26,135 nt of DNA from assembly GCA_027604185.1 (NCBI GenBank), contig JADGKB010000153.1, positions 1 through 26,135 on the forward strand. The letters run 5' to 3'. The stretch comes from Boothiomyces macroporosus (taxonomy: Eukaryota > Chytridiomycota > Chytridiomycetes > Rhizophydiales > Terramycetaceae). The position numbers and the translations under genes are program-made. Below, one piece after another: positions 119 through 19,555 of this stretch (the first letter of the stretch is position 1; every line of letters starts with the position of its first letter). The notes under the pieces are model-generated. The model worked only from the letters and a program-made list of their open reading frames with translations, was not told where the DNA came from and made no database searches.

Positions 119-313
119 CTTGTGGATCAGTAGTTGGTATTTGGCTGGCAACTTGGGAACCGGTATAGGAATCATTGGATCTGTGATTGGTAATTTGAAC
201 CTAAAGCAGGAATGGGTCACCCCATGTTCATAAGTGTGGTTTCCAAGCAAATCCGGTCTGTAAATGTAAAGAAAGTTATTGGCCAGATCGATAGCTATGC
301 ATTTACAGAATAA
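119..313 (+). CDS. 3' part of a seven-helix membrane protein (first of three tandem paralogs)
   Basis: Two exons can be read: one ending at 189 and one at 210-313 (stop at 311-313), separated by a 20-base GT-AG intron at 190-209. The joined end reads GSVIGMGHPMFISVVSKQIR and matches the C-terminus of the intact downstream paralog (GSAIGMAHILFITIVFKEIR), including the intron position, which is the main support. The 5' limit is uncertain. I see no convincing homology to the paralog before about 119, and 1-118 is AT-rich without a usable frame, so the copy is either truncated here or continues through an unrecognised intron or beyond the window. The family is not one I recognise. Confidence 0.5.
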
Positions 314-399
314 AGAGTAAAATATTGCATTGTATTAGGGTTAGCCTTTCCGCCAATAGTGTCCCTTCTTAAAACAATGACCACGATGGTTTCCTAAAA

Positions 400-1403
400 A
401 TGAGCGCATTTATAAAGTACTTTAATCTGACTGTAGTGGATATGGATTTGATGGAGTAATTGATACCGGACTGGATTTCGCGGAAGGAATCAGCTACTTT
501 GCGGTTTCATTGGCTGGATTTTATATTTTGCTCACGCTCATAATGATAGTACAATTAGGGAGAGGATGGCTGAATTACAAGAAATCTAAAGTGTGGTTTT
601 TTGTATGGATGATCAATCTGCTTTTATTGTCGTACTATACTGTCATGTTGATACGCTACTCTGATTTGAATTGTCCCTTTACCGTATGGCTGTATAATAC
701 AATGGGAGTAATGGGATTGTATGTGGTAGTGCTGGGGTAATTCTATTTTCATTTAGCCAAATGGATATTCTCAAAGTATTTACCGTTAATTCCACTTTTT
801 TGACACCCGCGTTAATTTACAAGGGACAGGTAATATTTACCGTATATAATTTGATTACTATGGGCGGGCTATACGCAAGCGTAATCAACCTCGGCCAGCA
901 GCGACCAGCACTATTAGCCAAAGTATTTCAGATTAACAAAAGTGGCAAATGTATGGTTATATTGTCTTTGCAGTTACATGCGTTGCTTATGAAACGTTTC
1001 ATGCAGTGTTTGTTGCCAACGAAGTCATCGCGCAAGCCAAACTGAGACAAAAGTTACTCAATTTGACAAATGGAAGTATGGATAGAAAAGAGCTGGAAAC
1101 ATTCAACTATCTGTATTACTTGATTCTGATAGGAATTGCAATTGATTGGACTGCAGGTACCATTTGACTAATTAGGAATAATCTGGATAGCTAGTTGGTT
1201 CAACAAAGGAAACACAGCAAAGAGTATCGGGATGATAGGGTAATCTGATCTAACTTAGTTCTGCTATTGGTATGGCGCATATTCTATTCATTACTATTGT
1301 ATTCAAGGAAATCCGTTCTATCAATGTCAAAAAAATGAAAGCCAAAACAATTGATGCTACTCAGTCAGAAGTGCCAGTTCCTATATCCGTGTTGGACACA
1401 TAA
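400..1403 (+). CDS. intact seven-helix membrane protein, family not recognised
   Basis: Six exons: 400-416, 437-736, 757-922, 943-1156, 1176-1239 and 1259-1403. They are separated by introns of 20, 20, 20, 19 and 19 bases, all GTA...AG. The joined frame gives about 310 residues with roughly seven hydrophobic helices, starting around the segment GFYILLTLIMIVQLGRGWLN and ending with the helix before FKEIRSINVKKM, followed by a short polar tail. The start at 400 follows a run of A and gives a polar N-terminus without a signal peptide. The topology resembles a receptor or rhodopsin-type fold, but no diagnostic motif (DRY, or a retinal lysine in a clear context) is visible, so no function is assigned. 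A 3' fragment of a paralog lies upstream and a decayed copy downstream, indicating a tandem expansion. Confidence 0.75.
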
Positions 1404-1527
1404 TGTTTAATTTAGAGCGTGCTCAAATAATTCTAATCGAATATAACCATTATCTCTTTATAATTCGCTGCAATAGCGAATTTCTAATTTTTGTAGTTAA
1501 AATACGTAATTGACTTTGTCAAAAATA

Positions 1528-1843
1528 ACCGCATTTTCGATAGGACAAGGTTTAGATGGTGAGCTGAAACGGGGCTGGATTACTCGTTGCCCATCAATAT
1601 CATTGCCGTGATTTTTGTGTGTCTCTATTTGCTGCTTGCAATTGGTATGCTCATTCGAATATTCACAGGATGGCTCAATATTTCAAAAACTTCAAAAGTA
1701 TTCTATTTTTCAGTGTTTGTGAATATCTTGGTGTTTGTGAATATCTTGGTGATTGTATAGCGCCTTGTAATGTTGCAAGTTATTTTAATGCAGGCAACTG
1801 GATATCCTCAAAGTTTTTACAGTCAATAGCAAAATATTGACAG
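1528..1843 (+). pseudogene. decayed paralog of the seven-helix gene at 400-1403
   Basis: Homology to the intact neighbour starts at its second codon (TAFSIGQGLDG versus SAFINGYGFDG), but the ATG is lost. A one-base shift near 1560 changes frame. The new frame reads TGLDYSLPINIIAVIF and a first helix ending in GWLNISKTSKVFYF. An exact 18-base duplication (1713-1730 and 1731-1748) repeats six codons before a TAG. After an internal deletion, the segment QLDILKVFTVNSKILT matches QMDILKVFTVNSTFLT of the intact gene, and homology then ends. The first intron of the intact gene is precisely absent here, while an intron-like stretch (GTAATG...GCAG) survives before QLDILK. I conclude it is non-functional. 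Confidence 0.65.
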
Positions 1844-1986
1844 TAAAGAGAATTAATTACGCCCAAATGGTATTTACCCAGCTTCTAGTGGCAAATTGGA
1901 TAAATAGACTGTCCTTCCTGGACTGAATATTGTTTGATATAGTAGATTTGGTTCTCTGGGTAGCCCAAGGTAAATTTAAAACGTGT

Positions 1987-3597: not shown

Positions 3598-3947
3598 GCG
3601 GAAAATACTTTAGAGGTCTGTTTAAAGGGAGGCAGGGGCAATATGGACACGCATGAAAGGTCATTTCCTTTTCAATAAACACAAGGGGAGGTAATTGACC
3701 AATCGTGATTCAAGATTAGCTCTGTTTATCATACCAAGGGCATGAATCAAGCAGAGATAAATCAAAGTGAGGTAGAGTTAATGTTAAGCGGATATGGTGA
3801 GTTAACATCAAAATAAAAGTACTGCTGGCTAAGATTAAGAGCTGGCCATTTGCAAAAGGATAACAGTAATTGCCAGGCTAAGAGAGTAAAGGGGTTAATA
3901 ATACCTAGATCTAGTAGAAAGTAACCCAGTGGGACAATGTACATTTT
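3598..3947. other. intergenic stretch, no supported gene
   Basis: This lies between the hexosaminidase start and the small membrane protein stop, both on the minus strand. It must hold the hexosaminidase promoter. A 60-codon minus-strand frame (3762-3944) begins three bases after the neighbour's stop and is hydrophobic, but it has no homolog I recognise and was not called. Confidence 0.4.
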
Positions 3948-4232
3948 TTATTTCTTGTAAACTTGTTTTTCTTCCTCTGACAGACTAAAGAAATCGCTCC
4001 TCCATTTCTCAAAGCCTCTTCTGATAGAAGAAAAAGCATGTTCATTTGGTCCAAAATCCATTACTAATACCATGTACCCAAGCGACAGTATTCCCACACA
4101 GTGACCAAAAATTCTTCCGTATTTGATTGGCTTGGATATCGATGGGACTTGGTTCAACACTCTGCGTCTGTATTTCATGAATTTCCTGCTTACTGCTACT
4201 TCGGCAGGCACCATTTCATTGTAGTAACCCAT
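3948..4232 (-). CDS. small single-helix membrane protein, function unknown
   Basis: 94 residues if translation starts at MGYYNEMVPAE (4232). A start at 4289 would add 19 Phe/Asn-rich residues but would overlap the upstream region of the NME5 gene. Layout: a basic N-terminal part with KFMKYRRR (about 18-24), one hydrophobic helix (about 41-58), then a charged tail containing DFGPNEHAFSSIRRGF and FFSLSEEEKQ. A basic N-terminus plus one helix and a charged tail is typical of small mitochondrial inner-membrane proteins, but this is inference and I do not recognise the family. It is divergently transcribed from NME5, so the two may share a promoter. Confidence 0.6.
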   Translation of the reverse strand: MGYYNEMVPAEVAVSRKFMKYRRRVLNQVPSISKPIKYGRIFGHCVGILSLGYMVLVMDFGPNEHAFSSIRRGFEKWRSDFFSLSEEEKQVYKK

Positions 4233-4439
4233 TTGAATTTGATTTTCAAAAAAAATATTTGAGTTCCATAAACAAATAATATTGAGCATGTCTGTAGTTT
4301 GGCCGTCTCAGCAGTCAGAGATCGTCTCTATACCCTAAGGATCCTGTCCTCTAAACCTCTTTCATCAGACGGCGGAGCGACAGGGCAATTGGAAATAACC
4401 ATTAAAAATCAAACGTCATTTTTTGTACGCGAAAACAGA

Positions 4440-5108
4440 ATGGAGAAAGCGCTGTTGCTATTACAACCCAACGTAACTCGCTTTGAGCATAATGTCAAAT
4501 TAAAATTAAAGAATCAGGGATACAAGTTCTTGGATGTAATTACCCTTTGAATTAGAAAATAGTCGCAAAATTAACGCCAGAGCAAGCAACGGATTTCTTT
4601 CAAGACAAGATGGATATGCCAAATTTCAATGAATTGATAGACTTTATGACTAGCGGACCCGTCGTCGCGTTTATTGTATCCAGACAGAATGTGTTTGACG
4701 AGTTGACAAACACTGTTGGCAGAGAAAACCCTACAGTAGCAAAAGCAGAGACACCAGACAGGTAAATATTGCTAATTCAGTTTAAGAGCTCACTATGGAG
4801 AATCAAGATTGAAAAATGGATTCCACTACAGCGAGAGCATCGAACATGCCAAGAAAGAAATCCAGTTCTTTTTCCCCAATAGTAATACTATATTAACAAG
4901 ATATCGTTGAGCCTCTGCCAACTATGGAAAACACCAAACTGTTTTTGGAGGATGCAGTCTACCCAATCCTGCTCACGGGAATGACTGCGTTGTGTAAAGA
5001 GAAACCTCAAAATCCTGTCGTAATTTATTTTAATTGTAGGAATGGCTGGGCGATTGGCTGCTAAATCACAATCCAAACAAGCCAATTATCCAAGAGCCCC
5101 CTGAATAA
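4440..5108 (+). CDS. NME5: NME5/RSP23-type nucleoside diphosphate kinase homolog with DPY-30 motif
   Basis: Five exons: 4440-4535, 4556-4761, 4781-4881, 4901-5019 and 5040-5108. Introns are 20, 19, 19 and 20 bases, giving 196 residues against about 212 in animals. NME5 orthologs are radial-spoke and axoneme proteins. The NDK domain runs from MEKALLLLQPN through KLTPEQATDFF, FMTSGPVVAFIV and NGFHYSESIEHAKKEI. It is followed by a DPY-30 dimerisation motif (YPILLTGMTALCKEKP, then EWLGDWLLNHNPNKP), the diagnostic NME5 architecture. The histidine of the active-site segment is kept (FHYSES), but the usual IKPD lysine is replaced (LQPN), so kinase activity is doubtful. The same frame is open upstream of 4440 without an ATG, so a slightly longer N-terminus behind an unrecognised intron is possible. 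DNAI1 begins 38 bases downstream. Confidence 0.9.
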
Positions 5109-5146
5109 ATGGTATATCTTTGCTTTAAAATTTACGCGTTTTTCAG

Positions 5147-7225
5147 ATGAAATCAACCAGAAAGATTAAAGTAACTGCTGAAAACCAGCTGCAACAAAAG
5201 AGCTTGTCCCAAAACTCTTTGAAATCGACTGAAGAGCCACCAAATGCCACTGACGACTGGCTACCTGTACTTTTTACTAATTGTAGCCCAAAGTGCTGTT
5301 GAAGCCAAAAGGACAGCTGGAACTGACTGAAAAAGAGCTAGAAGAGGAATTTACAAGGATTTTGAATGCAAATAACCCACACGCACCCCAGAATATTTCA
5401 AGGTACAATAACAAGGAGCGTATTTTCAAGACGGTGGCGAATATGGAGCACGTCTCTTTCCATTTCGAGTTTGACGGGTACTTGATTTACACTGCCACTG
5501 AAGAAGAAGAGCAACCAAAACAGGAGGGTGAAGCAACGGATGGAACTGCAGAAGAAATTGTTAGAACTACTATGATGGAGCAAGAGGAAGACAAGAAAGC
5601 AAAAATCCCAGTTAGAAATCAATTCAATTACAGTGAAAGAGCTGCTCAAACTGTCAACAATCCATTCAGAGAGCGTTCTACTAATACTGAACCACCACCA
5701 CAACGACCTTTCAGCGCAACAGTAAACCAATGGTCTATTTATGATGACTATATGGAAGACTTGATGCTGAAAGAACGAGCGGCAAAAGAAAAAGCCAAAG
5801 TAAGCTGCATTAACACAGGGTGCTGGTGGTGCTGTTAAGGGACACAAGGACGATGACAAGGGACTATTGCCATCTGACAATCATACAGAAGATGTATACT
5901 ACAAGAACCCAGAGTTGCGCAAAGTTATGATTGTTGCTGAACGAATGGCAAACCAAAACACGTTTGACGAAATATCGCAGGACTACAAGTATTGGGAAGA
6001 TGCTTCTGATGAATTGGGCGACAAGAAATGTAATTGCGGTTAATATTAGCTGGTAGTTTGCTCCCACTTTGGAAATTTGGGTTTCAAAAAGAGAAAAAGA
6101 AGCAAGTTACGAGTGTTTGTTGGTCACCACAGTTCAGTGACTTGTTTGTAGTGGGGTATGGTTCTTACGACTTTTCCCATCAGGGACCAGGTACTTTAAG
6201 CTAATCCAGGAATGATCGCGTGCTTTACTTTAAAGAACCCATCGTACCCCGAATACGTATACCAGACTGATTCTGGTGTAATGAGTGTGCATTTCCATCC
6301 CCAGCATCCGTCAATGATTGCAGTTGGATTATACGACGGTAACGTTTTAGTGTACAATATCCAAAAAAAGACTGATCAACCCGTCTTCAAATGCCAAACT
6401 AAAGGGGGAAGACACTCAGATCCAGTTTGGCAGGTATGGTGGCAAAACGACGATTTGGACGATAACCTAAACTTTTTCTCTGTTTCATCCGACGGAAGGG
6501 TAATCAGATGGACTCTCCTAAAGAACGAACTCTTGTACACGGATGTTATACAGCTAAAGTACGATCCAGTCACTGAGGAGGAAGAGAAGCTGTTTACGTT
6601 GGCTGGCGGGTGCTGCTTTGATTTCCACAAAAAGACTGATCACTTGTTCATGGTTGGTACTGAAGAAGGCAAAATGTACAAGTGCTCTAAAGAATACTCT
6701 TCTGAACATTTGCTCACTTTTGATGTAAGAATAGCTAATGCTAGGGACACCATATGGCTGTATATGGAGTAAAGTATAACCCATTCAACAGCAATTACTT
6801 GATTTCTTGCTCTGCTGATTGGACAGTAAAGATTTGGGACCACAACGAACCAAAGCCAATCCTGACATTTGATTTGAATGGCAGTGTTGGAGACGTCGCT
6901 TGGTCTCCTTACTCTTCTACTGTATTTTCAGCGGTAACAGCCGAAGGAAAAGTAAGTCTTTTTGACGTAGGCGTTTGTATTTGACTTGAGCGTAAACAAG
7001 TATGCCCCAATGTGCGAGCAAATGATTGTTAGGAAAGCAAAATTGACGCACATTAGCTTCAATCCATTTGACCCTATTCTTTTGGTCGGAGACGATAGAG
7101 GCCAAGTTGTATCGCTGAAACTGTCTCCAAACTTGAGAAAGATGAGTGGCTCGACAGATGAAGAAGCAGAAAAGCTGCAGAACGTTATTGATGCTGCAAA
7201 AGGCAAATCCAACCTCTCTTACTAA
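5147..7225 (+). CDS. DNAI1: axonemal dynein intermediate chain 1 (outer arm IC)
   Basis: Seven exons: 5147-5266, 5287-5799, 5819-6029, 6050-6190, 6210-6724, 6745-6951 and 6971-7225. Introns are 20, 19, 20, 19, 20 and 19 bases, giving 653 residues (human DNAI1 is about 699). Orthologs anchor outer-arm dynein to doublet microtubules. The N-terminal signature is LELTEKELEEEFTRILNANN (about 51-70) followed by PHAPQNI. A charged central part leads to AERMANQNTFDEISQDYKYW and SGSLLPLWKFG, then a WD-repeat propeller with CFTLKNPSYPEY, DGNVLVYN, HSDPVWQVWWQ, SCSADWTVKIWDH, VGDVAWSPYSSTVFSAV and VGDDRGQVVSLKLSPNLRKM. Similarity spans the full length, so each splice junction is well constrained. The gene implies motile flagella. 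Confidence 0.97.
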
Positions 7226-7232
7226 TAAATTA

Positions 7233-7314
7233 TCTAGTTTTGGTTTGTACTACCTCTGCCAACAGAGAAATTCTCTAGTTTTGGTTTGTACTACCTCTGC
7301 CAACAGAGAAATTC
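7233..7314. repeat. 41-base tandem duplication, two copies
   Basis: Two consecutive copies of a 41-base unit beginning TCTAGTTTTGGTTTG (7233-7273 and 7274-7314), essentially identical. The array starts eight bases after the DNAI1 stop, so it probably lies in the 3' untranslated region. The near identity suggests a recent duplication. Confidence 0.85.
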
Positions 7315-7587
7315 TCTATTCTATTGCTGGCGCAACAGCTTTGGCAATGGTAAACTGCTCTTGCTTTGTGTCTGGACCTAATATCTAGAGAATATGAGGT
7401 AATTATCAGAGCGTGCCGGTATTACATACACAGCGAAATTGCATGTAGTCGAACGTGGAATTTCACAGTGTACATAATTGAAATAGAGAACCGGAACAAC
7501 GTTTACAATGCACCGGATCCCCACTACTATTTACATAGAAGATGGATCCACGGATAAAAAGTGTTTATTACTAGTATATCAATGAAT
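7315..7587. other. intergenic region between convergent DNAI1 and eL31
   Basis: This holds the 3' ends of two converging genes. A short plus-strand frame ending at 7386 is open but has no recognisable homolog. No tRNA fold or conserved gene was found here. Confidence 0.4.
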
Positions 7588-7959
7588 TTAGTTGTCTTCA
7601 ACAACTTCGGTTTGGAGTCCCTTGAAGGAAGCAACAGTGACTGGAGTAACGTAGGTGAACAACTTTTGCTTTGCGTTTTCGTCGTCGTTACGTTTTCTAG
7701 CCAAACGGACACGGATTCTGTAAGCAACACCCTTGACTCCTCCTTTCCAGACTTCCTTGTTCAAAGATGGGTCCAAACGAACATCGTCAGTTCCCATGGT
7801 CTTCTTGGCAAAGTCTCTGATGACTTTGACTGCCTTTGGAGCGCGCTTCTTGAAAGTGGTTCCGTGCAAGTGCTTGTGCAAGTGAATGGTGTATTCACGA
7901 GTGATAACTTCGTTCAAAGCAGACTTTTTGGTTTCCTTCTTGACTTGTTCCTTGGCCAT
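7588..7959 (-). CDS. RPL31: large-subunit ribosomal protein eL31
   Basis: A single exon of 123 residues, the usual eL31 length. eL31 lies near the peptide exit tunnel of the 60S subunit. Signatures: [70 protein letters not shown] and a C-terminal acidic VVEDN. The start [17 protein letters not shown] is chosen because it matches the family N-terminus and follows ACTAAA. The open frame further upstream shows no homology. It is divergent from the P2 gene, and the two start codons are 161 bases apart. Confidence 0.97.
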
Positions 7960-8120
7960 TTTAGTGTAAGAAATCCAAAAAAAATTTTGACCTTTTAACT
8001 CACCAGCCACTTCTCTAAATATTCCGTACATTTTGATTGGCCAGAATTTTTTTAAGGTGCTCATATTTTTTTAAACCTCGCAGATTTCTTTACTTTTGGC
8101 TCAAACTTGCTTGTATCAAA
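7960..8120. promoter_or_regulatory. shared promoter region of divergent eL31 and P2 genes
   Basis: 161 bases separate the two start codons, so both ribosomal protein genes must be driven from here. The stretch contains poly-A/T tracts (near 7977-7984, 8047-8053 and 8067-8073) and a GATTGGCC block (8034-8041) whose reverse complement contains CCAAT. Nucleosome-excluding A/T tracts are common at fungal ribosomal protein promoters; their function here is inferred. Confidence 0.6.
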
Positions 8121-8444
8121 ATGAAATACTTGGCTGCCTACTTACTCGCTAACCTTGCTGGAGACGCTTCTGAATCCAAAATCAACGAAATTCTCGCTGC
8201 TGTCGGTATCGATGCTGACTCTGAAAGAATCAACACCCTTATCACTGAATTAAGCGGAAAGGACATTAACGAAGTTATTGCTGAAGGTGCAACCAAACTC
8301 GCTTCCGTCCCAGCTGGTGGTGCTGCCCCAGCTGCTGCTGCCGGAGGTGCCGCTGCTGGAGGTGCTGCTGCTGCTGCAGTTGAAGAAAAGGAAGAAGAAA
8401 AGGAAGAATCCGATGAAGATATGGGCTTCGGTTTGTTCGATTAA
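8121..8444 (+). CDS. RPLP2: 60S acidic ribosomal protein P2
   Basis: A single exon of 107 residues. P2 pairs with P1 on the uL10 stalk and recruits translation GTPases. The N-terminal dimerisation domain begins [15 protein letters not shown] and continues with [18 protein letters not shown] and [17 protein letters not shown]. An alanine/glycine hinge (about 70-92) precedes an acidic tail ending [11 protein letters not shown], the conserved stalk C-terminus. The MKYLAAYLL start distinguishes P2 from P1. Codon choice favours C-ending codons more than neighbouring genes, as expected for a highly expressed gene. It is intronless. Confidence 0.98.
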
Positions 8445-8560
8445 TCTAATGATTTATTGTTATAATAAAACATCTTCTCACACACGTTGTAATTGAATTC
8501 TCAAACGGGACGCTGCACTAGAGGGGTTTCTGTAATGAAATTATTTTCACCAACAGATAA

Positions 8561-9583
8561 ATGAGCTTTTGCTCCAGATTGCCAAAGATTGAATTGCATG
8601 CCCACTTGAACGGGTCATTGACGGAGGATATTATCATGGAATTGATCGGCGACAATGCGCACCTCTCTGCAGAATACTTGATTGTACTTGTTCCTAACCC
8701 AGTTTAAAGACACATGTTCAAATATTGGATACACCAACTTTTTTGGGATGTTTGGCAAGTTCATTTACAAGCTAACCACCACTAAAATACAAATTGAGCA
8801 AATTACTAAAAGAGTCGTTGAGCTGTTTGCCAAGGACAATTGCAAATACTTGGAGTTGCGAACCACGCCAAGAGAAACCAGTACAATGTCAAAAAAAGAA
8901 TACATTGAAGGGCTGTTGGATGGAATCAGAGATTCGCCAATCTCTGTGCGATTGCTAATATCTATGGATCGTAGACATACCGCTCATGAGTCTCTAAAAG
9001 TACTGGAAATTGTAAAGGAAATCAATAATCCGTTGATTGTTGGAGTCGACTTGTGTGGAGACCCCGCTAAAGGCGATTTCATTACAGACATGAAGCCTGC
9101 ACTTTTGTATGCCAAAGAAATTGGATTAAAAGGTATTAGATTGGTAACATAGTAACAACCCACCTTTCTGAACTGCCAAATGTTGACCAAGAGACCTGGG
9201 ACATTCTTCAAACTAGACCAGACAGGGTTGGCCACTGTATTTATCTTGATGAAAAGAGCACCAAGTTCATCAAGGAAAACAAAATCCCGATCGAAATCTG
9301 TCTTTCTTCAAATATCTGTTGCAAGGCAGTAAACTCGATTGAAGAGCATCACGTTAAAGAATTTATCGACCATCCAATAGCTCTATGCACCGATGATATT
9401 GGGGTTTTCAAATCCACTTTGACACAAGAGTATGAAATGGTAGAAAATGGTCTGGGATTGAGTAAACAAGATCTATTTAATCTTTCTTTACGCTCCATCG
9501 ATTGCATATTTGACGAAGCAATGAAACCTGTTTTAAAGAAGCAATGGCTAGAATTTTCCAATCAAGAGTTTGAAAATAAATAG
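8561..9583 (+). CDS. ADAL: adenosine deaminase-like protein, N6-methyl-AMP deaminase type
   Basis: Three exons: 8561-8683, 8703-9132 and 9153-9583, with 19- and 20-base introns, giving 327 residues. ADAL/MAPDA proteins hydrolyse N6-methyl-AMP to IMP, clearing methylated nucleotides from RNA turnover. Zinc and catalytic signatures of the amidohydrolase fold are present: LPKIELHAHLNGSL (H13, H15), THLSELPN (H188, E191), RVGHCIYLD (H212) and ALCTDDIGVF (D265-D266). Also present are KYLELRTTPRET and IVGVDLCGDP, which favour ADAL over classical adenosine deaminase. The second intron starts before the apparent frame ends; removing 9133-9152 gives GLKVTTHLSE, which matches the family. NPHP1 starts only 14 bases downstream. 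Confidence 0.93.
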
Positions 9584-9597
9584 TTTACGCGTTTAGC

Positions 9598-11652
9598 ATG
9601 ACTCAAGTAGTAGCCAAATACGATTATATAGCTGTGACAGCTCAGGAGATGAGCATCGCTGTTGGAAATGTTTATTCTTTATTAGATAGAGAAAATGTGG
9701 ATTGGTGGTTGGTAGAAGACACACAGGGAACCCAAGGATATGTGCCAGCAACGTATGTAGAGATAGTACAGGACCCTCCAAAAATACAACACTTTCATAA
9801 TCCTCAATTGGCAAGAGTCAAGATGGAAGAAGTAACTTTAACTCCTTCCAAAGAAAAGATTGTTGAACATGTTAGAAAGTTGCAAAATGCTTCCAGGGAG
9901 AACTTGCTTGACAAACAAAGCAGTCCCCAACAAGAACTATCGCAATCCAAACAGAAAATGGTGGAAACCGTAAAGAAATTGCAAAGCGCTTCCAAGGAAA
10001 ACTTGCTTACTGATTCGATAGAAGTTGATGATTCCATAGTGCCAGAAAGAAACGTGAAGATTGAATCCAGCAAGAATGTGTATAATGAGATTCAAAACAA
10101 CGATCAAGAGACTGCATCTGAAGAATCTGAAGAGTCTGAAGAATCAGATGAATCAGAAGAGTCAGATGAAGAATCAGAAGAAAGCCAAGAGGAATCTCAA
10201 GATAGCGAAATTGATCAAGCAAGTGACGTTTCTAGTGAATCAGAAAAGTCTAGCAAATCAAAACAATCCACAAAAGGTTTCTTTGATTAACATAGATCAG
10301 GTCCAATCGGTCATTCAGAACTTGCGGAAAAGGAAATCTCAAGTTCATAAAATACATCGAGGAATCAAGCTGGCAGAACCAGAAAAGATTGAAGGGTTCG
10401 AATCAGTGCCTTTTGGTTTCAAATCATCCATACTAGCCCAAAACTACAACAAAGGAGTTGGCTTAGCGATTTCATATCTCACACCACAGCTAAACTCTTG
10501 TGGGTTGGCGTTCAAAGATTTACATTTGGGAAGAAAGAATAATGTCAGAAAAAGGCAAGTTAAATGCAATATTTCGTTCTATGTAAAAGAAGGCAGGTTC
10601 ATTCCTGCATCGCAGCCGTTACCTGTTATTGGAAGACACGTCCGAATGGCACTGTTTGACAAGACAAATATTGTTAGCAATATACATTCAGTACCAGCAT
10701 CCCTGACACCAGAGCACGAGTACAACTGGCGATTCACTCCAAAGGTATTCCTACCTTTACATAGTCATTTTTAAACAACAGCAAGGAAAACAAGTGCTTT
10801 GTAAGGACTTTTGACAGCGACTTGAAGCTGTGCATCTTGTTTGAACTATGCTTGGTTGTTAAAAAGCCAACGGAAAGCAATCAGGATCAATTGGCTGAAA
10901 TATCGTGCGGCTGGTGTGTGCTTCCACTATTTACCTCTGATGGAAAAATCGTAGAGCCAAAAGCATATGAGCTGCCTATATACACTGGTTCTCCGTTCGA
11001 TAAAGAAATCATTGTGGCTTCGTCACCTTCAAAAGACACTGGCTTCTTTAGCAACCTGTTTGCTGGCTCCAGAACACCTACTTTAGTGATACGAGTTTCA
11101 AAAACAGATAAAAGATCCTTGAATTATCTAAAGTAACTTTATCTAACATTAGTGATTTGCCAGATGTACTAATTGGTGGATCAAACTCTCTTCATATCTT
11201 GTCAATTTATCGCAACGTGCTGGCCAACACACTCCTTGGAAAAATAACTCATCCACTGGGTTCCAAATATGAGCCGATCCTAGCAATAGTACCTCGGCTA
11301 TTGGAGGAAGTAGATTTACTCAATCATTTTATTGTGCTATGGCGGAAGAGATACCGCGCATTACCTGGACACGAAAAGGTAAATATCGCTAAAACAGAAA
11401 TCCTATTACAAATTGAAAAAACAGTTTACTGCAGCTATTTTGACAGTTTGGCCATTGTTTTTCATTGATATGCCGAGATATATTCCAGGAAACGCCGAAA
11501 ACATGATTGCAAGGAATGAGCTGTGGATGAAACTACAAGAGCAGGGAGTGATGGTATTCCTCTCAAAGCCCGGAAATGCGTACCGGCCTTTTAGCACGGA
11601 AGAGCTCGAGTATAGCTACTACAAAGTATCAAAATTAACTACCGTAGAATAA
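9598..11652 (+). CDS. NPHP1: nephrocystin-1, ciliary transition-zone protein
   Basis: Five exons: 9598-10276, 10296-10744, 10765-11132, 11153-11378 and 11398-11652. Introns are 19, 20, 20 and 19 bases, giving 658 residues (human about 733). NPHP1 belongs to the transition-zone module at the base of cilia. An SH3 domain lies at the very N-terminus (about 3-58, with VVAKYDYIA and GYVPATYVEIV), so the coiled coil that precedes SH3 in animals is missing. Next come two copies of a basic motif ending KLQNASRENLL and KLQSASKENLL, then a Glu/Ser-rich tract (about 171-215) like the acidic region of animal NPHP1. The rest (about 235-658) matches the nephrocystin homology region: GFESVPFGFKSSIL, NISFYVKEGRFIPAS, FFIDMP and LWMKLQEQG. 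The first intron begins GTTTCT rather than GTA. Confidence 0.9.
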
Positions 11653-11792
11653 AGAATTTAATTATAATATATTTGTCAATTTTTAGAATGTGGGCATCGG
11701 TGTACTCTTTTTATCAAGTTATTTTGTCGTCCATTGTTGTTGCTTTCCATTGTTCAGTCGCACCTGGCTCCACTGCACTTTTACTAAATATA

Positions 11793-14487
11793 ATGAGTTT
11801 GTTACATTCAGCAGCGTAAGTATAGATTTAAAACTAGTCCATTTGTAGTGAAGATACAGCTGCCAACAAATGACACCACAATGATACAAGTAGAGGAGTT
11901 GACAAGCATAGCAGAGATTGTTAAAATGGTGGAGGAAAAGAAATCTACGAAATACGAATCAATAAAAGTCTATATCAATACTGCAGACGGGAAAAAGATT
12001 GAGCCGTTGCTGGAAGAGACGCTGTCAAACTACAAACAAATAGAAAAGATTGTGTTTTGTAAGTGGTTATTGACTTAGCGCAATTCAATACTGCGAAACC
12101 AGCGTCAAATTCAGAGGCGCCGATATCTAGCAGAAGAGGAATGGAGAAACTAGGGCTGACAATTGATAAAAGTTTAATGGGTGAAAGAGGAATGGATTCT
12201 CCGTCTCTAAGAAAGATTAAAATAGGAGTAAAGAGCGCAATGACAATGCTGAAAAAAGTCAGTCAGATTGATGATGGAACGTCCAGTTTGGGCAGCAACA
12301 ACAGCCTCGGTGGATATTCACCTGACGCTGGAACCAAAAGTTCACCAGCAGTCAGTATCACAGAACCACACAAAAGCGTACTACTAATGGGTTCAGCAGA
12401 AAAAGCCCAACAGTTACAAATGCGAAGACCTCGCTCGGCATCGAATCTAATTAATTCCCCAAGTGGAGATAACCTAAACTCTCCTTCCCCAAGAACTACA
12501 AAAGTATCAGATCAAGAGCTGTCAAGCTCTTATAATTCTCGTAAATCCCACTTGCCGCCTCAAAGTTTACGAATTAGCACACTGAGCAAAAGCGTAATTG
12601 ATATGGGCGACACCTGCCAAACACCGACTTCAATAAATGAAGAAACAACATCGATGTTTGGAGGAGAGTCCATTGAAGGCACACAAGAGTAATTATAGAT
12701 TGATATAGCAATCTGAATGCGATTACAGAAGAGGATCACAAAAAGTATAGTGAAAAGTACAATGCAGATACGGGTAAAATATGGAAAATACAGTGCAAAG
12801 TTCCAACTGGCACAGCACTACCAGACTTGCCATCAACAATTGCAAGTTCGCCAATCTCACCTGGCCAGACGCATGCAGTGTTTAAGCTGCATATACCGGA
12901 CGACCAGCCATTGGTGATTAAAATGCCGGCTGAGATGCGTATGGAACAGTTTTGCGAAAAAACTTGTCAAAGAAAGAACCTTGATCCTGAACAGTACTCT
13001 TTCGAATACGACGACCCTCCACGACCAGTCGAAATGGATCGACCACTAGAACACTACGCAATACCATTAAAAACACCAAATTTATTCTTGGTAAAGAAAG
13101 CCAAAGTGTATTCGTCAATTACAGTCATGGAAGACGACGAAGAAAGCCTAGTGCTAAATTCAATCAACGGAAAGTAATTGCTATTAATGTAGAACTGTAA
13201 TCATGCTCTGTAAGAAAGCGAAATTGTTGAACCTATTAACAGACATAAATTTTGAAGGTATTTTCCGTTGACAATAGACGAAGCATTTACCAGCACTCTG
13301 TTTTTAACGTATCGCTCTTTTTGCACGCCAGAAGAATTTTTAGGGAATTTAATTAATACTTTTAATTGCAGAATAACAGAGAATTCAACTGCTGAAGAAA
13401 AGGAAAGCTTTGCGAGGGATAGAGTTCCTACGCAGCTAAAGTAATCGAGCATTTACACGTAGAGTGCTAAGGATAATGCACCACTGGATTGAGCACCATT
13501 GGCAAGATTTTGGTTTCTCTAGTGAAATGAGAAAGACGCTAGAAATATTTTTATTAAATTTGGTGAATCAGCCAGAAGGTGAATTTACTGAAGTTTGTAG
13601 AGGACTGATGTATGTAGCAGATATACAAGTACTTGCTGAATAACGATAGCGACGTTGGTTTGAAGACTTGCTAAGTACATACTCTAGAGATGAAAGAAGA
13701 GGCAGAGGGCTAAACAGTATCTTTGAAGAGCTGGAAGCCGAAGAGCTGGGCCAGCAACTATGCCTTTATAATTCCGAGATATTTAGAAACATTCACCCAA
13801 TTGAATTTTTGAATGAAATCTGGAAAGGTGCAGATAGCGAGTCATCCCCATCGTTCAAATTCTTTGTAGAGCGGTTTGACAAGGAGTCCTATTGGGTAGC
13901 TACGGAGCTATTACTATGTAAAGACTTCAAAAAACGAGTAAATGCCCTGCGTAAATTCATCACACTTGCAAAAGTACATTTATATAACCTAGGTTTCCTT
14001 GGATTTAAACAATTTCTTTAGCACATTTTCATTAATCTCTGGGCTTAACCTGATACCCGTGCAGAGATTAAAAAAGACTTGGGAGGTAAATGATTTTGAT
14101 ATAGGCTTTGCCAGAGAAATCCAAGTTGATGTGGACAGAAGTAGAGAAAATATCGGATCCATCAAAGAATATGAAGAATTACAGGGATAGACTAGCAATA
14201 GTGCAACCACCAATGGTCCCATTCTTGCGTAATTGCAGCTAATATTAGCGAGCTACCTCAAAGACCTGACATTTATAAATGACGGCAATCAAAAGACGAT
14301 TAGAAACATGATAAATGTAGATAAACTAAGAATGATGGCAAACAGGGTGCTGGAGATCACTAATCTTGGCAGTGTTGCTTATCTGTTTGAAAAGAAACCG
14401 GCTGTATTGAACTACCTTGGAAAACCAAAGATTGAAAAGGACATGAACAAGTTGAAGGAGTGGGCTGCAGATTGTGAAAAGAATTAG
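11793..14487 (+). CDS. Ras-family guanine nucleotide exchange factor (REM plus CDC25 domains) with ubiquitin-like domains
   Basis: Eleven exons: 11793-11815, 11838-12058, 12079-12688, 12709-13173, 13193-13257, 13278-13440, 13463-13628, 13650-13973, 13993-14085, 14105-14228 and 14249-14487. Introns are 22, 20, 20, 19, 20, 22, 21, 19, 19 and 20 bases. The sum is 2493 bases, 830 residues. Order: a ubiquitin/RA-like segment (about 10-80), a Ser-rich disordered linker, a second RBD-like segment (FKLHIPDDQPLVIKMPAEM to LFLVKK), the REM domain (FTSTLFLTYRSFCTPEEFLG), then the CDC25 domain (LYNSEIFRNIHPIEFLNEIW, FDKESYWVATELL, LNNFFSTFSLISGLN, RLKKTWEALP, QPPMVPFLPSYLKDLTFIND). It should activate a Ras/Rap-type GTPase. 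An in-frame ATG at 11688 would add 35 hydrophobic residues; the start at 11793 is preferred but unproven. Confidence 0.9.
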
Positions 14488-14602
14488 TTAATAAATCATT
14501 GAATATAACTCTATTTTCTTCTGAATATCGACTTGCAAGTCTAAATCATCTATTGATAATAGCCCTACCTTGGTCTAGTGATTTTAACAGATAAAAAATA
14601 TA

Positions 14603-15644
14603 TTACTTTTTCTTCATTCTCAATGTAGATTTCAGTTTTTTGAATCGGTCTACTTTCTTTTCTCCTCCTCCCTTTTCTAATAGATTGGTAACTGGCGCAA
14701 CTGTAAAGTCAGCAGCTATTTTGACAGGCAAGCTAGCCCTGTTCTCGTGAGCATTAGGGTCAACCTCTCTTCTATATGAAGCATGAGAAGTTGATTGTCG
14801 TGGCTGGTACCTAACTTCAGCTATCTTTCTGTGTCTATGGTTATTAGACTTTCCTAATATGGGTCGCTGAATAAGTATTATTTACCATCCACGTTCTTAG
14901 TAACTCCTCTGCCAGTTTCTTTACTTGCGGTGCAACGCGATCGCACTTCGTGTAAAACATTACTACTCTTCCTACTTTGGATGATCGGAGATGATGCGTA
15001 TCAATAGGCATCTTGATTAACAACAAATACTTTTTTCAATAAATTCATCATATTTAACTGGATATCAAGTGAAGGTAGTGATCCATCGGTCAGTGGTTCC
15101 AGCCAGAATTTTATACATTCCAATACATTCTGATCTAATAGGGCTTGAAACCAATGCACTCTTATTTTAATCATTGATTACTTGCTCAGCTGTACCATTG
15201 TAGATTGTAGTAACTTTAGTTTTGCAATTGCTGGCTGCCCATTCTTGTTTAATTCTTGGTCATTGTAAGCCGCGTCTCTCATTGAAGTTAACAGCGCTTC
15301 AATAACTTCATCCGCCTGTACTTCAGTCTGCAAATCAGAGAGCTTTTTAGGCCTCTGTTTCATCCTGTTTAAAATATTGTCGATGTCTTTTTGCGCTTCA
15401 TTCACAGGCTCCTTCTTGTCGTCAATTCCTACCAATGAGAATTAGAAACCTGGAATTAATCCTACAAACCTTCTTCCTTCTTTCTTTTCTTTTTTGGTTT
15501 GTCCTTTTGGTCCTTTTTGGTAAAGGAAGGCAGCTCCTGTTCCTCATCTGAATCGAACGTAACGTCCTTTACTTCCAAGTCATTCAAGTCGTCTTCGTCG
15601 TCTGACTTGCCAAAAATGTCGTCGATTTCCTGTCGGTTTTCCAT
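14603..15644 (-). CDS. IWS1: transcription elongation factor IWS1/Spn1
   Basis: Five exons (reading on minus): 15644-15470, 15428-15182, 15160-15031, 15011-14886 and 14866-14603, giving 313 residues. IWS1 binds Spt6 and travels with RNA polymerase II. The acidic N-terminus reads MENRQEIDDIFGKSDDEDD, followed by a lysine-rich patch. The TFIIS N-terminal/LW-type helical domain follows: IDNILNRMKQRPKKLSDL, EFWL-like KFWLEPLTDGSLPSLDIQ, SSKVGRVVMFYTKCDRVAP, ELLRTWMRPILGKSNNHR. A basic tail ends FKKLKSTLRMKKK. Introns are 41, 21, 19 and 19 bases; the first is the only validated intron longer than 22. The frame is open upstream of the chosen ATG as far as a GTG, but no ATG or homology supports that extension. 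It converges on the Ras GEF with 115 bases between stops. Confidence 0.93.
15429..15469 (-). other. 41-base intron made of two adjoining intron-like units
   Basis: On the minus strand the intron reads as a 20-base GT...AG unit (15469-15450, GTTTGTAGGATTAATTCCAG) directly followed by a 21-base GT...AG unit (15449-15429, GTTTCTAATT to GGTAG). Keeping either unit puts a stop codon in frame, so both must be removed to continue IWS1. It may be spliced once as 41 bases or as two abutting short introns. Confidence 0.7.
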
Positions 15645-15849
15645 TTCGATTGAAAATTTTTGATCAAGAATATTTCCTGTTCCTAGGGGTTCAGAGCAAA
15701 CAAATAGCTTGGAAACAGAAGTGATTCTACCTACTACGTGTTTATTAGTCCCATTCCAGTTGGCAGTAAAAAGATTGAGGAAAATCACTGTCTATCACTC
15801 TCTATGATTAGTAGAACGATTTTGAGTTAATGCAAGTGTCGAAAGATTT

Positions 15850-15969
15850 TAAGTAAGATTTAAAGAAAGCTTTAAAGAAAGCTTTAAAGAAAGATTTAAA
15901 GAAAGATTTAAAGAAAGCTTTAAAGTAAGCTTTAAAGAAAGATTTAAAGAAAGATTTAAAGTAAGCTTT
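15850..15969. repeat. 12-base tandem repeat, ten copies
   Basis: Ten tandem copies of AAAGAAAGMTTT (M = A or C), with occasional AAAGTAAG variants and a slightly different first copy. Two variant units alternate irregularly. The array lies between the IWS1 start and the first P450 stop. Confidence 0.95.
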
Positions 15970-16061
15970 GGGGATTCTATCCTTGTTTTATCCAGAATGA
16001 ATAAGAAAGAGCTACTATGCAAGCACAATGGAAAATAAATGCTAGAGACAATCCCCAAAGC
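15965..16061. repeat. 12-base perfect inverted repeat around a 73-base spacer
   Basis: GCTTTGGGGATT at 15965-15976 is the exact reverse complement of AATCCCCAAAGC at 16050-16061. The left arm begins inside the last copy of the 12-base tandem repeat. It could form a cruciform or be a remnant of a small insertion; no coding capacity is present inside. Confidence 0.75.
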
Positions 16062-16105
16062 CGATTAGTTTGATTTAGTTAATAGCCGAAATTAAACCTT
16101 GTTTA

Positions 16106-17593
16106 TTACGCCAATTCTCTAGGAAGAATACCTACTTTTGCACCCTTGATTGTAGATACAATCATGGACTTGTAGTGAATCTTTTGCTCTACATTTTGAA
16201 CAGAAAACCGTTTTAGTATTTGCACAATCGCGTATTTGGCTTCGATTACAGCCATCTTTTGACCAATACAATTACGAGGGCCATCTAAATGAGAAAAAAG
16301 TACTGCCGAATGGTTGGTATGCATTTGGGTTGGAGTCATCTGCTAGCCACCGTTCAGGGTTAAATGATTCTGGGTTCTTGTAGTACTTTTCACTCTTGAA
16401 CACAAATGTATTTGAGCAATATACCGTCTAGATTAGTTGTGTTTACTTGTCCTTTTCGGACGGGATAGCCTAGAACAAAAGTGTCTTTGACAACAAGTCT
16501 GTCAATTGCAGGTACAAGAGGATGCATACGCATTGTTTCTTTAAATACACTGTCCAGATACTTGAATTCGTTGATGTATCTTAGAGCATCTGATTCATCT
16601 TTTAGCTCAAAGTCTTTGATTTCATTGTACAATTTTTGCTGAATATCAGGATGCAATCCAAGTTCGTAAAGCATAAAAGTTAGAGTATTAGCAGTAGTAT
16701 CTTGGCCAGCGATAAAGAATCCAATCATTTCAGTCAAGATTTGGTCTTGGGAAAGCTTTTGCGAATCCAAAGCAGATGACAATCGATCCACTACATTCAT
16801 CTTCCAGCCTAAATTAAAAGCAAATACCTTCACGGTTTGGGTCATTGTTTTCAACCATCTTCATCATGGACTCTTCCAGTTTATTTCGCATTTCGACTAC
16901 TTTTGGAGAATATCGTGCGATTCCAAAGGTTCTCCAGAGTACCATTGGCACTACCATTCGCAAGGTAAATATAGGAACGATGGATTTCTCCACACTGCCC
17001 CACATGGAGGTTTTTTCTTGCTCGGTTTTTCCAACCAAATTCACATTACCACCAAAAAGCACTGAAATTAATACTTGAACAACAACGGAATTCATTGCAT
17101 CAAAGGCGTCGATTTCTAGTGGTTTATCAGAAACCTTGGAGTACCAGAAATCTGCTAATTGATCTACAATTTCCATTGTAGCAACAGCAGTGTGTTTCAA
17201 GTGAGTCGGTCCAAACGCAGGCTGGACTAGCGCTCGATGCATTCGATGATCATTGCCAGTATCTAATCCCAACAACGATCCATCCAAATATCCTGTCGCT
17301 ATATCCTTTAAAGCTTCTTTTCCAAAATCGTCGGTAGTGGTGAAGATACGCTTGATTTCATCGGCATCTCCAATCGCAACATCACTCCCAAAGATTCCAT
17401 ATCGGAATATTGGACCAAGCTTTGAATGATACTTTTCATAGAATTCCTTGCGACGTTTGGTCAAAGTCAAGTAGATTGCTTCAAGATTACCAAACACGCC
17501 AACGCTAGGGATTGCATCTTGTTTCCGGAATAGCTGATATGCTGCGATTGCTATTCCGATACCAGCGAGAATTTCCAATTTGTGAGTTTCCAT
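16106..17593 (-). CDS. cytochrome P450, tandem copy 1
   Basis: Four exons (minus): 17593-16828, 16808-16447, 16427-16304 and 16284-16106, with three 19-base introns, giving 476 residues. P450s are haem monooxygenases, usually anchored in the endoplasmic reticulum; the substrate is unknown. An N-terminal hydrophobic anchor (LEILAGIGIAIAAYQLF) is followed by the I-helix oxygen-binding motif FIAGQDTTANT (about 288-298), the K-helix FKETMRMHP (ExxR), the FNPERW segment, and the haem loop PFGDGPRNCIGQKMA with its cysteine at about 423. The last intron interrupts the haem loop between G and D of FGDGPRNCIG. All key residues are intact. A near-identical patch shared with copy 2 indicates gene conversion. 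Confidence 0.94.
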
Positions 17594-17714
17594 TGAAAAG
17601 AAAAGGATTGACGGCCCTCTTTTGCGGGACAGTGCACCGCTTGGGGAATCTTTGACAGACGCAACCAAAATAATCAACAGACATCACTGCCACAATGTAG
17701 AAACCATTCGCTCA

Positions 17715-17988
17715 TTAGAAAACTTTAATATTTTCGTATAAATGTTTAATCCATAATTGTTGGAAATTTTCATATTTTTCGTTCAATAGTGGTTCAGAGT
17801 TTTGTTTTTTTCCGGGCCTTGATTTACTCATTTTGGCACCATCACCTACAGAAAACGGTCTAGTTACACAGCCAGTACTGTTATTTGGGTTGGCTCAATG
17901 GAGAATATGGAACGGTTAACTGTTTTTGAATGAATCCCAGTTGCTCTGGAGAGAAATTTAGAATCTCTAGGCAGTCCAATTTCCACAT
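17715..17988 (-). CDS. predicted small protein in the gap between the two P450 genes
   Basis: Two proposed exons (minus), 17988-17921 and 17877-17715, joined across a 43-base GT-AG intron that ends with a TAAC-containing 3' segment, give 76 residues. Exon 1 reads MWKLDCLEILNFSPEQLGF. Exon 2 contains VTRPFSVGDGAKMSKSRPG, then a polar stretch and YENFQQLWIKHLYENIKVF. Both exons have protein-like composition. The start is 27 bases from the upstream P450 stop, as expected in this compact region. The intron is longer than the 19-22 bases typical here, which lowers confidence. An alternative 19-base intron at 17857-17875 leaves an in-frame TAA. No family recognised. Confidence 0.4.
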
Positions 17989-18015
17989 TGCACCGTATAA
18001 AATCACACTATTTTA

Positions 18016-19501
18016 TTAACTTCTTGGAGTTACTCCAACTTGCACCCCTTTGATTGAGGAAACAATCACCGATTTGTATTCGACCTGCTGTTCAACATTT
18101 GTAAAAACAAAATGCTTCAAAAGCTGCACAATCGCGTACTTTACTTCAATTACTGCCATCTTTTGCCCAATGCAGTTACGAGGTCCGTCTAATGTTAAAA
18201 CAACGTACCGCCAAATGGCTGAAATGCATTTGGGTTTATCTGATCATCCTTCCAACGGTCAGGGTTAAATGATTCTGGATTCTTGTAGTACTTTTCATCC
18301 TTAAATACCACTACGTTTGTACAGAGTACAGTCTATGTTAGTCTGATTTACTGATCCCTTTTTGACAGGGTACCCTAAAATAGAGCAATCTTTTACCACT
18401 AGTCTACCTATAGTAGGCACAACAGGATGAAAACGCATTGTCTCTTTGAAGAAACAATCCAGATACTTGAACTTGTTGATGTATCTTAGAGCATCTGATT
18501 CATCTTTTAGCTCAAAGTCTTTGATTTCATTGTACAATTTTTGCTGAACATCAGGATGCAATCCAAGTTCGTAAAGCATAAAAGTTAGAGTATTAGCAGT
18601 AGTATCTTGGCCAGCAAAAAAGAATCCAATCATCTCTGCCAATATTTGCTCTCTTGAGAGTTTTTGTGAATCCAAGGCTGAAGATAACCTATCAACCACA
18701 TTCATCTTCCAGCCTAAATTAAAAGCAAATACCTTCACGGTTTGGGTCATTGTTTTCAACCATTCTTGTCATTGAATCTTCCAGCCTCTTTTTCATGTCA
18801 ACCACTCGTTTAGAATACCTTGATATACCCAGCACTCCCCACAATATCTTTGGAGTGACAATTCGAAAAGTCATGACAGACCCAACTGATTTTTCTATAT
18901 TTCCCCACATGGAATTCTTTTCATCTGCAGTTTTTCCAAGCACTTTAACATTTCCACCAAACAATACTGAAATCATTACCTCAATAGCGATTGAATTCAT
19001 GGTATTGAAAACATCAATTTCAAAAGGTTTATCTGAGAGTTTGCTCTGCCAAATTTGTGCCAATTCGTCCACAGTGTCCATGGTAGCAACTGCAGTGTGT
19101 TTCAAGTGAGTAGGGCCAAATGCAGGTTGAACAAGCGCTCGATGCATTTTGTGCTCGTCTCCAGTTTCCAATGCCAATAGCGAACCATCCAGGTAGCCAG
19201 TTCCGATATCTTTTAATGCCTCTTTTCCAAATTCATCAGTGTTGGTCAATATGCGCTTGTTTTCATCAGGATCGCTGACTGATATATGAGTTTTGAACAT
19301 CCCGAATGCGAATATTGGACCAAGCTTGGAATGGTACTTTTCATGGAATTCCTTTCTCCTTCTGGCGAGAATCAAGTAAATGGAATCAAGGTTGCCAAAG
19401 AACCCGACTGTGGGAATGTTGTCACTGGATCTAAGCAATTGATAGGCCGCGAATGCTACTGCGACACCTGCGAGGATTTCAAATCGGTGGCTATCCAACA
19501 T
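18016..19501 (-). CDS. cytochrome P450, tandem copy 2
   Basis: Four exons (minus): 19501-18733, 18713-18352, 18332-18209 and 18188-18016, with introns of 19, 19 and 20 bases at the same positions as copy 1, giving 475 residues. Motifs: N-terminal anchor EILAGVAVAFAAYQLL, I-helix FFAGQDTTANT, K-helix FKETMRFHP, and haem loop PFGDGPRNCIGQ. Start MLDSHRFEIL is aligned with METHKLEIL of copy 1; an ATG at 19522 would add seven residues. The two proteins are clearly paralogous, most different in the N-terminal third and identical over parts of the I-helix and following region. A triple 36-base repeat lies upstream. Confidence 0.93.
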
Positions 19502-19555
19502 TTGAAAAGCAAACTTTTGCATTCCAGGTTCGGCCTAAGTGGCCGACTCTGCACA

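Follow-up and report, generated by a model that had tools for sequence, protein, structure and literature searches.

Can the spliceosome of a fungus remove introns of 19 or 20 nucleotides (nt)? The question is raised by a 26,135-nt stretch of DNA from Boothiomyces macroporosus (contig JADGKB010000153.1, positions 1 to 26,135; hereafter the window), in which the frames of gene after gene are broken by segments of about this size that start with GT and end with AG. Introns of such a size would lie far below the usual fungal range and near the lower limit of all known introns. Based on the sequence evidence given below we propose that these segments are major-class (U2-type) spliceosomal introns, which have very probably shrunk genome-wide to mostly 19-22 nt in this organism. 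A prediction made earlier from the letters of this DNA (the original prediction) had described near-uniform ultra-short spliceosomal introns in a flagellated, fungus-like organism. Its description of the introns is supported, as GT-AG introns of the major spliceosome, by the evidence presented here; as to the host, it is indeed flagellated, with cilium genes present, yet it is not fungus-like but a true fungus, a chytrid placed by taxonomy in Chytridiomycota, Rhizophydiales, Terramycetaceae.

Hand-curated models of ten genes contain 42 GT-AG introns between positions 190 and 18732, the first at 190-209 and the last at 18714-18732. Twenty are 19 nt long, 17 are 20 nt, two are 21 nt, two are 22 nt and one is 41 nt, a tally identical to that of the original prediction. 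Removing the introns leaves one open frame from ATG to stop in nine genes, the tenth being a gene fragment with a single intron (190-209), and to this extent the frame restoration claimed before is confirmed. All 42 introns have GT-AG ends by construction of the models, and independent support for these ends comes from the flat behaviour of decoy end pairs described below. The 41 short introns of the window are 71% A+T.

The introns were called by three approaches: a frame-rescue count, a self-trained gene finder that treated all lengths from 8 to 300 nt alike, and a second stage guided by a length prior that had been learnt. The window was then curated by hand. By itself the length-blind stage recovered 14 of the 42 window introns. 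Of the 41 short introns, 38 were found by the automatic second-stage model, which called the 41-nt intron as 20+21 nt; the introns at 190-209, 417-436 and 11816-11837 were added by eye, with the prior tally of 42 known beforehand. The same model fused the ribosomal P2, adenosine deaminase (ADA), SH3 and RasGEF genes into one, and these were separated by hand. When the background of the gene finder was trained on all sequence it called mostly long introns, and a noncoding background improved the calls.

Homologous or paralogous proteins cross 33 of the 42 junctions. At 31 of these the alignment is gap-free, be it to the sequence of a solved structure, to the annotated protein of a relative or, for three junctions in cytochrome P450 gene b (P450b), to the neighbouring paralogue, and at two (6030-6049 and 8684-8702) there is a gap of one residue. 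The remaining nine, without homology support, were placed from the reading frame and the motifs; gene A holds five of them and fragment A' one, the others being 5800-5818, 11816-11837 (where the acceptor side only is aligned) and the 41-nt intron. By gene, all four junctions are gapless in the NME5-like kinase and in the nephrocystin-1-like gene, as are nine of ten in RasGEF (the tenth being one-sided), three of four in IWS1, all three in P450a (one of them weakly conserved) and, through the paralogue, all three in P450b. Adenosine deaminase has one gapless junction and one with a one-residue gap; the axonemal dynein intermediate chain gene DNAI1 has four gapless junctions, one with a one-residue gap and one in a poorly conserved region. 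At all nine counted RasGEF junctions the protein of one relative or the other, Boothiomyces sp. JEL0866 (P0121) or Terramyces (P0123), reads across; the protein of B. macroporosus itself at NCBI (P0122) was compared as well.

The RasGEF gene is also a place where the public annotation departs from our models. Were the public gene models right, some genes would have longer introns, of 92-198 nt, covering exons that we propose. Although the exons 13193-13257 and 13278-13370, with two more stretches, are absent from P0122, and the length-blind gene finder picks introns of 198, 131 and 92 nt at the same places, the skipped pieces are conserved: P0121 has both exons and the stretch PSYLKDLTF, P0123 has VSLDLNNFF, and the structure sequence 4mgk_E aligns gap-free through both stretches. 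The models of the relatives err as well, P0121 being without VSLDLNNFF and P0123 without the two exons. We regard the explanation by longer introns as very unlikely. The stretches that P0122 lacks and one or the other relative keeps would correspond to introns of 198, 131 and 92 nt, with ends that the length-blind model chose too. Since a predictor may join a pair of short introns and the exon between them into one apparent long intron, some gene models of the group are probably wrong. Two NCBI proteins of the organism agree with five of our introns (9133-9152, 12059-12078, 12689-12708, 13441-13462 and 13629-13649), so that the deposited models seem to include introns of 20-22 nt already.

Intron lengths across the genome

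Ultra-short introns are widespread beyond the window and not a local feature, as judged from a sample of 20 stretches of 10 kilobases (kb) from 20 other contigs, that is 200 kb (226 kb with the window) of the 15.2-megabase (Mb) genome. In the frame-rescue count, which covered the window and the 200 kb and required 60 open codons on either side and a frame break if the segment is left unspliced, GT-AG segments peaked at 19 nt (59), 20 nt (87) and 21 nt (27), compared with 28-39, 22-29 and 2-11, respectively, at the other lengths of the corresponding class between 10 and 30 nt. The count at 22 nt was 40, which is no peak by itself. Segments with CT-AC ends numbered 35, 29 and 1 at 19, 20 and 21 nt.

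Tabulating intron lengths outside the window, a check that the original prediction had proposed, gave a similar picture. Self-training on GT-AG ends with no length prior placed 105 of 159 introns of the 200 kb at 19-22 nt, and the decoy end pairs CT-AC, GA-TG, TG-GA, GT-AC and CT-AG placed 2 of 91, 3 of 108, 1 of 101, 3 of 111 and 3 of 116 in this range. In the second stage, with the learnt prior, 286 of 314 introns in 226 kb were of 19-22 nt (89, 119, 56 and 22 of 19, 20, 21 and 22 nt). In the sampled part of the genome most intron lengths lie within a few bases of each other, as in ultra-short-intron genomes, and a naive extrapolation from the 289 introns of 25 nt or less gives ~19,400 in the 15.2-Mb genome.

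Two further patterns were considered and set aside. There is no sign of recent intron copying, 246 of 248 sample introns being distinct, and no deficit of lengths divisible by three is seen, as 21-nt introns are not missing. Retention would introduce an in-frame stop in 41 of 82, 61 of 104, 36 of 47 and 14 of 18 introns of 19, 20, 21 and 22 nt, respectively, which is no evidence, since 21-nt introns without a stop are hard to detect.

Signals, splicing machinery and a possible mechanism

The typical intron reads GTA(A/C)TT, followed by 4-5 little-constrained bases, the branch-like motif YTNAY, 0-3 bases (mostly 1-2) and YAG. The branch-like motif surfaced in the model without having been supplied, its commonest forms being TTAAT, CTAAT, TTAAC and CTAAC. 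It fits the TAAC/TAAT/TGAC-like segment that the original prediction had noted near the AG; in window introns of 19-22 nt its A is 4-7 nt away from the intron end. Assigned by a best-match rule, in which the choice of A is the analyst's, the branch-like A falls at +14 in 61 and at +15 in 6 of 69 sampled 19-nt introns, at +15 in 53 and +14 in 46 of 102 sampled 20-nt introns, at +15 in 38 and +16 in 8 of 51 sampled 21-nt introns, and at +16 in 14 and +15 in 5 of 21 sampled 22-nt introns, the distance from this A to the intron end being mostly 5-6 nt. The best YTNAY-like match has its A at +14 or +15 in all 37 window introns of 19-20 nt and in 166 of 171 such introns in the sample.

At the donor, which begins with GTA, the sample frequency of A at +3 is 0.88-0.92 and that of T at +6 is 0.52-0.67. 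The upstream exon ends in G in 0.53 of cases, and an exon end AAG followed by GTA fits pairing with U1, although G at +5, as in GTAAGT, is not enriched. Measured against exon background, the donor window holds ~6.7 bits and the acceptor ~7.3 bits of information. At 90% sensitivity exons contain 0.24 equally good decoys per kb when lengths of 19-22 nt are allowed versus 2.54 per kb for 17-60 nt; we rejected this density as proof of a length rule, as it merely gives the ratio of the lengths allowed. As a separate observation, T is the commonest base at both +5 and +6, though the U1 and U6 motifs are canonical.

Among the spliceosomal small nuclear RNAs (snRNAs), U1 was found with 68.8 bits against a cut-off of 69.5 and with its 5' end, AUACUUACCUG, unchanged; U2 was found at two loci with GUAGUA unchanged, U6 with ACAGAGA unchanged, and U4 was found as well. 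The two U2 genes lie on different contigs and differ in their 3' halves, their branch-binding region being the same. Of the spliceosome proteins searched (U2AF large subunit, SF1, Slu7, Prp18 and RED_N), the first four gave matches: U2AF large subunit at E=1.1e-67, SF1-HH at E=3.6e-32, Slu7 at E=2.6e-44 and Prp18 at E=2.3e-50. The RRM1-RRM2 part of the U2AF large subunit aligned to human U2AF65 at E=1e-61. U2, SF1 and U2AF (as its large subunit), the genes that the original prediction had singled out for inspection, were hence all found. The gene models of U2AF2, Slu7, Prp18 and SF1 themselves carry predicted introns of 19-24 nt; one call of 253 nt in the U2AF2 model resembles a gene merge. 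The reduced spliceosome, or loss of Slu7 and Prp18, that is seen in some ultra-short-intron lineages does not apply here, as U2AF large subunit, SF1, Slu7 and Prp18 are present.

These signals and factors bear on the idea that the segments are not spliced but removed from the DNA, as are the eliminated sequences of ciliates, or bypassed by the ribosome. The uniform small size could suit a unit that is cut out and rejoined or bypassed, and no result supports either process, whereas the GT...AG ends, the branch motif matching U2 and the AAG|GTA junction matching U1 argue against both, as do the occurrence of U1, U2, U4, U6, SF1, U2AF large subunit, Slu7 and Prp18 in the same genome and the missing length peak of CT-AC and four other decoy pairs; we hold this explanation to be extremely improbable. 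Sequencing errors or pseudogene decay as the cause of the frame breaks, for which nothing speaks beyond the breaks themselves, can practically be dismissed, as the breaks coincide in conserved genes with 19-22-nt GTA...YAG units bearing YTNAY and occur at matching places in both P450 paralogues.

Several observations weigh against the interpretation of these segments as ultra-short introns of the major spliceosome. In the length statistics, an initial self-training without splice-site models gave only 30 of 71 introns at 19-22 nt, the length-blind splice-site model places 54 of 159 introns outside this range, and 28 of the 314 introns called in the second stage also fall outside it (18 nt in one case, 23 nt in two and 55-283 nt in 25), three of these off-length introns being window artefacts of merged genes. 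The coding model from which the decoy runs began had been trained on GT-AG genes, those of the window included, and the exon decoy counts are biased low, since strong decoys would count as introns. G at +5 is not enriched (0.16-0.24 in the sample compared with 0.21 in the exon background) despite the canonical-looking U1. In the machinery, a search for U5 snRNA by its Rfam model found none even at E<=10, where 46 of 1544 candidates were scored, which is no proof of absence; no match was obtained to RED_N, a factor associated with short introns in human, which does not establish absence; and the U2AF match is below the family cut-off (230.7 versus 310.3 bits, in pieces), with two control bacteria also matching the model. 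Finally, work in yeast leads to the expectation that second-step factors are dispensable, and lost, at such a short distance from branch to AG; a Stentor-like loss of these factors is ruled out, as Slu7 and Prp18 are both present.

How would introns of the major class be spliced at such a length? We propose that the spliceosome recognises the intron as a unit (intron definition), with U1 pairing with the exon end and GUA and U2 pairing with the branch motif. As the motifs hold only ~14 bits, length itself may act as part of the signal, a role also suggested for nucleomorph introns (PMC5014332). The 5' splice site and the branch would be ~13 nt apart, so that the U6/5' splice site and U2/branch helices would have to be much shorter than in human and nearly touching, or formed in turn. 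In the human B complex (PMC6692369) the U6/5' splice site helix is 17 nt and the U2/branch helix 14 nt, with room for ~21 nt between them and an estimated minimum of 52 nt from the 5' splice site to the branch point. The predicted lariat would consist of a loop of mostly 14-16 nt and a tail of mostly 5-6 nt, and from the branch site to the AG no tract would be left for U2AF2; SPF45 is reported to take the place of U2AF in short human introns whose pyrimidine tract is truncated (PMC8363638). On balance we lean slightly towards the view that Terramycetaceae chytrids independently evolved a spliceosome for introns of 19-22 nt, one that keeps U2AF2, SF1, Slu7 and Prp18, spans ~13 nt from the 5' splice site to the branch, needs neither G at +5 nor a downstream pyrimidine tract, and uses length as a caliper.

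Genes and introns of the window

At the start of the window, on the plus strand, lies fragment A', a C-terminal end with its stop near 312 that resembles by eye the C-terminus of gene A; its 20-nt intron (190..209) was recognised by eye from motif and frame. Gene A (400..1403, plus strand) encodes an unknown membrane-like protein of 301 amino acids (aa), for which no homologue was found at E<=0.001, and its frame is open once five introns are spliced, three of 20 nt at 417..436 (by eye), 737..756 and 923..942 and two of 19 nt at 1157..1175 and 1240..1258, all called by frame and motif. The introns at 190-209 and 1240-1258 are ~4 codons apart in the same paralogous stretch, as judged by eye, and the offset suggests sliding or independent gain.

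Three cilium genes (NME5-like, DNAI1-like and nephrocystin-1-like) lie inside ~7 kb at 4440-11652, and they fit a zoosporic fungus. The NME5-type nucleoside diphosphate kinase homologue (4440..5108, plus strand; 8j07_X, E=5.5e-42) has a DPY30-like C-terminal part, with 7n6g_4I (DPY30) aligned at 147-187. Its four introns, of 20 nt at 4536..4555 and 5020..5039 and of 19 nt at 4762..4780 and 4882..4900, show no gap at the junction against 8j07_X. The homologue of axonemal dynein intermediate chain 1 (DNAI1; 5147..7225, plus strand; 9fqr_Gn, E=2.8e-205) has six. Those at 5267..5286 (20 nt), 6191..6209 (19 nt), 6725..6744 (20 nt) and 6952..6970 (19 nt) have no gap at the junction, that at 6030..6049 (20 nt) has a gap of one residue beside it, and that at 5800..5818 (19 nt) lies in a poorly conserved region and was called by frame and motif.

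The nephrocystin-1-like SH3 gene (9598..11652, plus strand), named after the Terramyces protein annotated as Nephrocystin-1 (P0123), has introns of 19 nt at 10277..10295 and 11379..11397 and of 20 nt at 10745..10764 and 11133..11152, all four without a gap against P0123. Upstream of it is the adenosine deaminase-like gene (8561..9583, plus strand), with PF00962 in the final exon and matches to 6iv5_A and to NCBI HK103_001821, a B. macroporosus protein to which the spliced model is 100% identical over 83% of the query. Its 20-nt intron at 9133..9152 has no gap against 6iv5_A, the Terramyces protein or HK103_001821. Its 19-nt intron at 8684..8702 is spanned by the Terramyces protein with a one-residue gap and falls outside the shorter HK103_001821, which begins within the exon following this intron.

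The RasGEF gene (11688..14487, plus strand; PF00617; 4mgk_E; P0121-P0123), called Rap guanine nucleotide exchange factor-like 1 at NCBI, has ten introns and an uncertain first exon. The 22-nt intron at 11816..11837 was added by eye, its acceptor side aligning to P0123 and its donor side being unsupported. The nine others have no gap: 12059..12078 (20 nt) and 13629..13649 (21 nt) against P0121, P0122 and P0123; 12689..12708 (20 nt) and 13441..13462 (22 nt) against P0121 and P0122; 13174..13192 (19 nt), where P0122 apparently uses 13174-13371, and 13258..13277 (20 nt) against P0121; 13974..13992 and 14086..14104 (both 19 nt) against P0123 and 4mgk_E; and 14229..14248 (20 nt) against P0121 and 4mgk_E. 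In the Terramyces annotation the nephrocystin-1 and RasGEF genes are fused into one protein of 1334 aa (P0123); here (9598-14487) a stop and 35 bases separate them.

On the minus strand, the homologue of transcription factor IWS1/SPN1 (14603..15644; 7xn7_n, E=4e-35) has four introns, of which those at 15161..15181 (21 nt), 15012..15030 (19 nt) and 14867..14885 (19 nt) have no gap against 7xn7_n. The fourth, of 41 nt (15429..15469), was called by frame, its junction lying in a low-complexity region. It is the sole long intron of the curated set and is made up of two intron-like units, of 20 and 21 nt, standing back to back (CCAG|GTTT) with nothing between. This is also the sole predicted intron pair no more than 6 nt apart in the second-stage set of 226 kb. 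It may be read as one 41-nt intron or, in the manner of recursive splicing, as two introns around an exon of zero length.

Two neighbouring cytochrome P450 genes follow on the same strand. P450a (16106..17593; PF00067; 7kvk_A) has three introns of 19 nt, each without a gap and each at a position matched in its paralogue P450b (18016..19501). The intron at 16809..16827, where conservation is weak, corresponds to 18714..18732 (19 nt), identical in sequence; that at 16428..16446 corresponds to 18333..18351 (19 nt), diverged in sequence; and that at 16285..16303 corresponds to 18189..18208, one base longer at 20 nt. The last lies within the PFGxGPRNCIG stretch of P450a, which we take to be the haem-binding motif. 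The two genes (16106-19501) thus share an identical first intron and a very similar next exon, whereas their second and third introns have diverged, a pattern that looks like gene conversion of part of the gene.

Further along, a 728-aa open frame on the minus strand (23305-25491) carries a P-loop-like GTGKTT stretch and gave no Pfam match at E<=0.001; a second-stage intron inside it is doubtful, since no splicing is needed to keep the frame open. Short tandem or direct repeats were noted by eye at 15850-15970, 7235-7320 and 19555-19665, in intergenic or gene-end positions.

Comparison with known short-intron systems

Boothiomyces macroporosus is a saprotroph and is not known as a parasite. 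As it is a fungus of this habit with splicing factors kept, intron miniaturisation appears to be separable from parasitism, genome erosion and the loss of second-step factors. In the literature consulted, introns of 15-21 nt occur in ciliates, in a parasitic lineage of rhizarians and in the relic nuclei of algae; to these would be added a fungus in which, by extrapolation, they number in the thousands. The problem now stands in an opisthokont, near enough to yeast and human to allow a part-by-part comparison of proteins and structures, and it raises the questions of which changes in the B complex bring the 5' splice site and the branch site within ~13 nt and what role U2AF2 plays without a tract. 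Literature searches on the introns of fungi, chytrids, aphelids, Boothiomyces and Terramyces, mostly without subscription journals, showed no report of such introns in a fungus among the matches listed.

Closest in length are the nucleomorph introns of chlorarachniophytes, at 18-21 nt (PMC10245619), which are of nearly the same length class and likewise numerous and narrow in range. They belong to the relic nucleus of an endosymbiont, whereas here the genome is a fungal one of 15.2 Mb, and unlike in nucleomorphs, where introns of 21-27 nt are said to splice much less well (PMC5014332), those of 21-22 nt make up 78 of 286 short introns in Boothiomyces. In the heterotrich ciliate Stentor coeruleus introns are 15-16 nt with the branch A at position 10 or 11 and a 5-nt tail, and Slu7 and Prp18 are reported missing, being entered as N/A in the table (PMC9505925). 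Boothiomyces resembles Stentor in its AU-rich GT-AG introns and in the spacing of 5-6 nt between branch A and the end of the intron, and differs in having ~4 nt more from the 5' end to the branch A, a clear YTNAY, a G at about half of the exon ends, and both Slu7 and Prp18.

The original prediction had named ciliates and nucleomorphs as the known carriers of introns this short; both belong there, and the list lacked the mikrocytids, with introns of 16-17 nt, 224 of them in M. mackini (PMC10245619). Mikrocytids share with Boothiomyces the uniform ultra-short size, and contrast with it as parasites with few introns and a strongly reduced spliceosome, ~19,000 introns being extrapolated here and U2AF large subunit, SF1, Slu7 and Prp18 being kept. 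Among fungi, Cryptococcus neoformans has introns of 56 nt on average and is described as the one with most introns below 60 nt among those studied (PMC11913375); a survey of fungal genomes puts its mean at 63 base pairs (bp), termed relatively short (PMC8476143). The species is, like Boothiomyces, a fungus rich in short introns, yet its introns are nearly three times longer. The kind of intron described here is known from other systems; what is new, as far as we have seen, is the lineage in which it occurs and the splicing factors retained with it.

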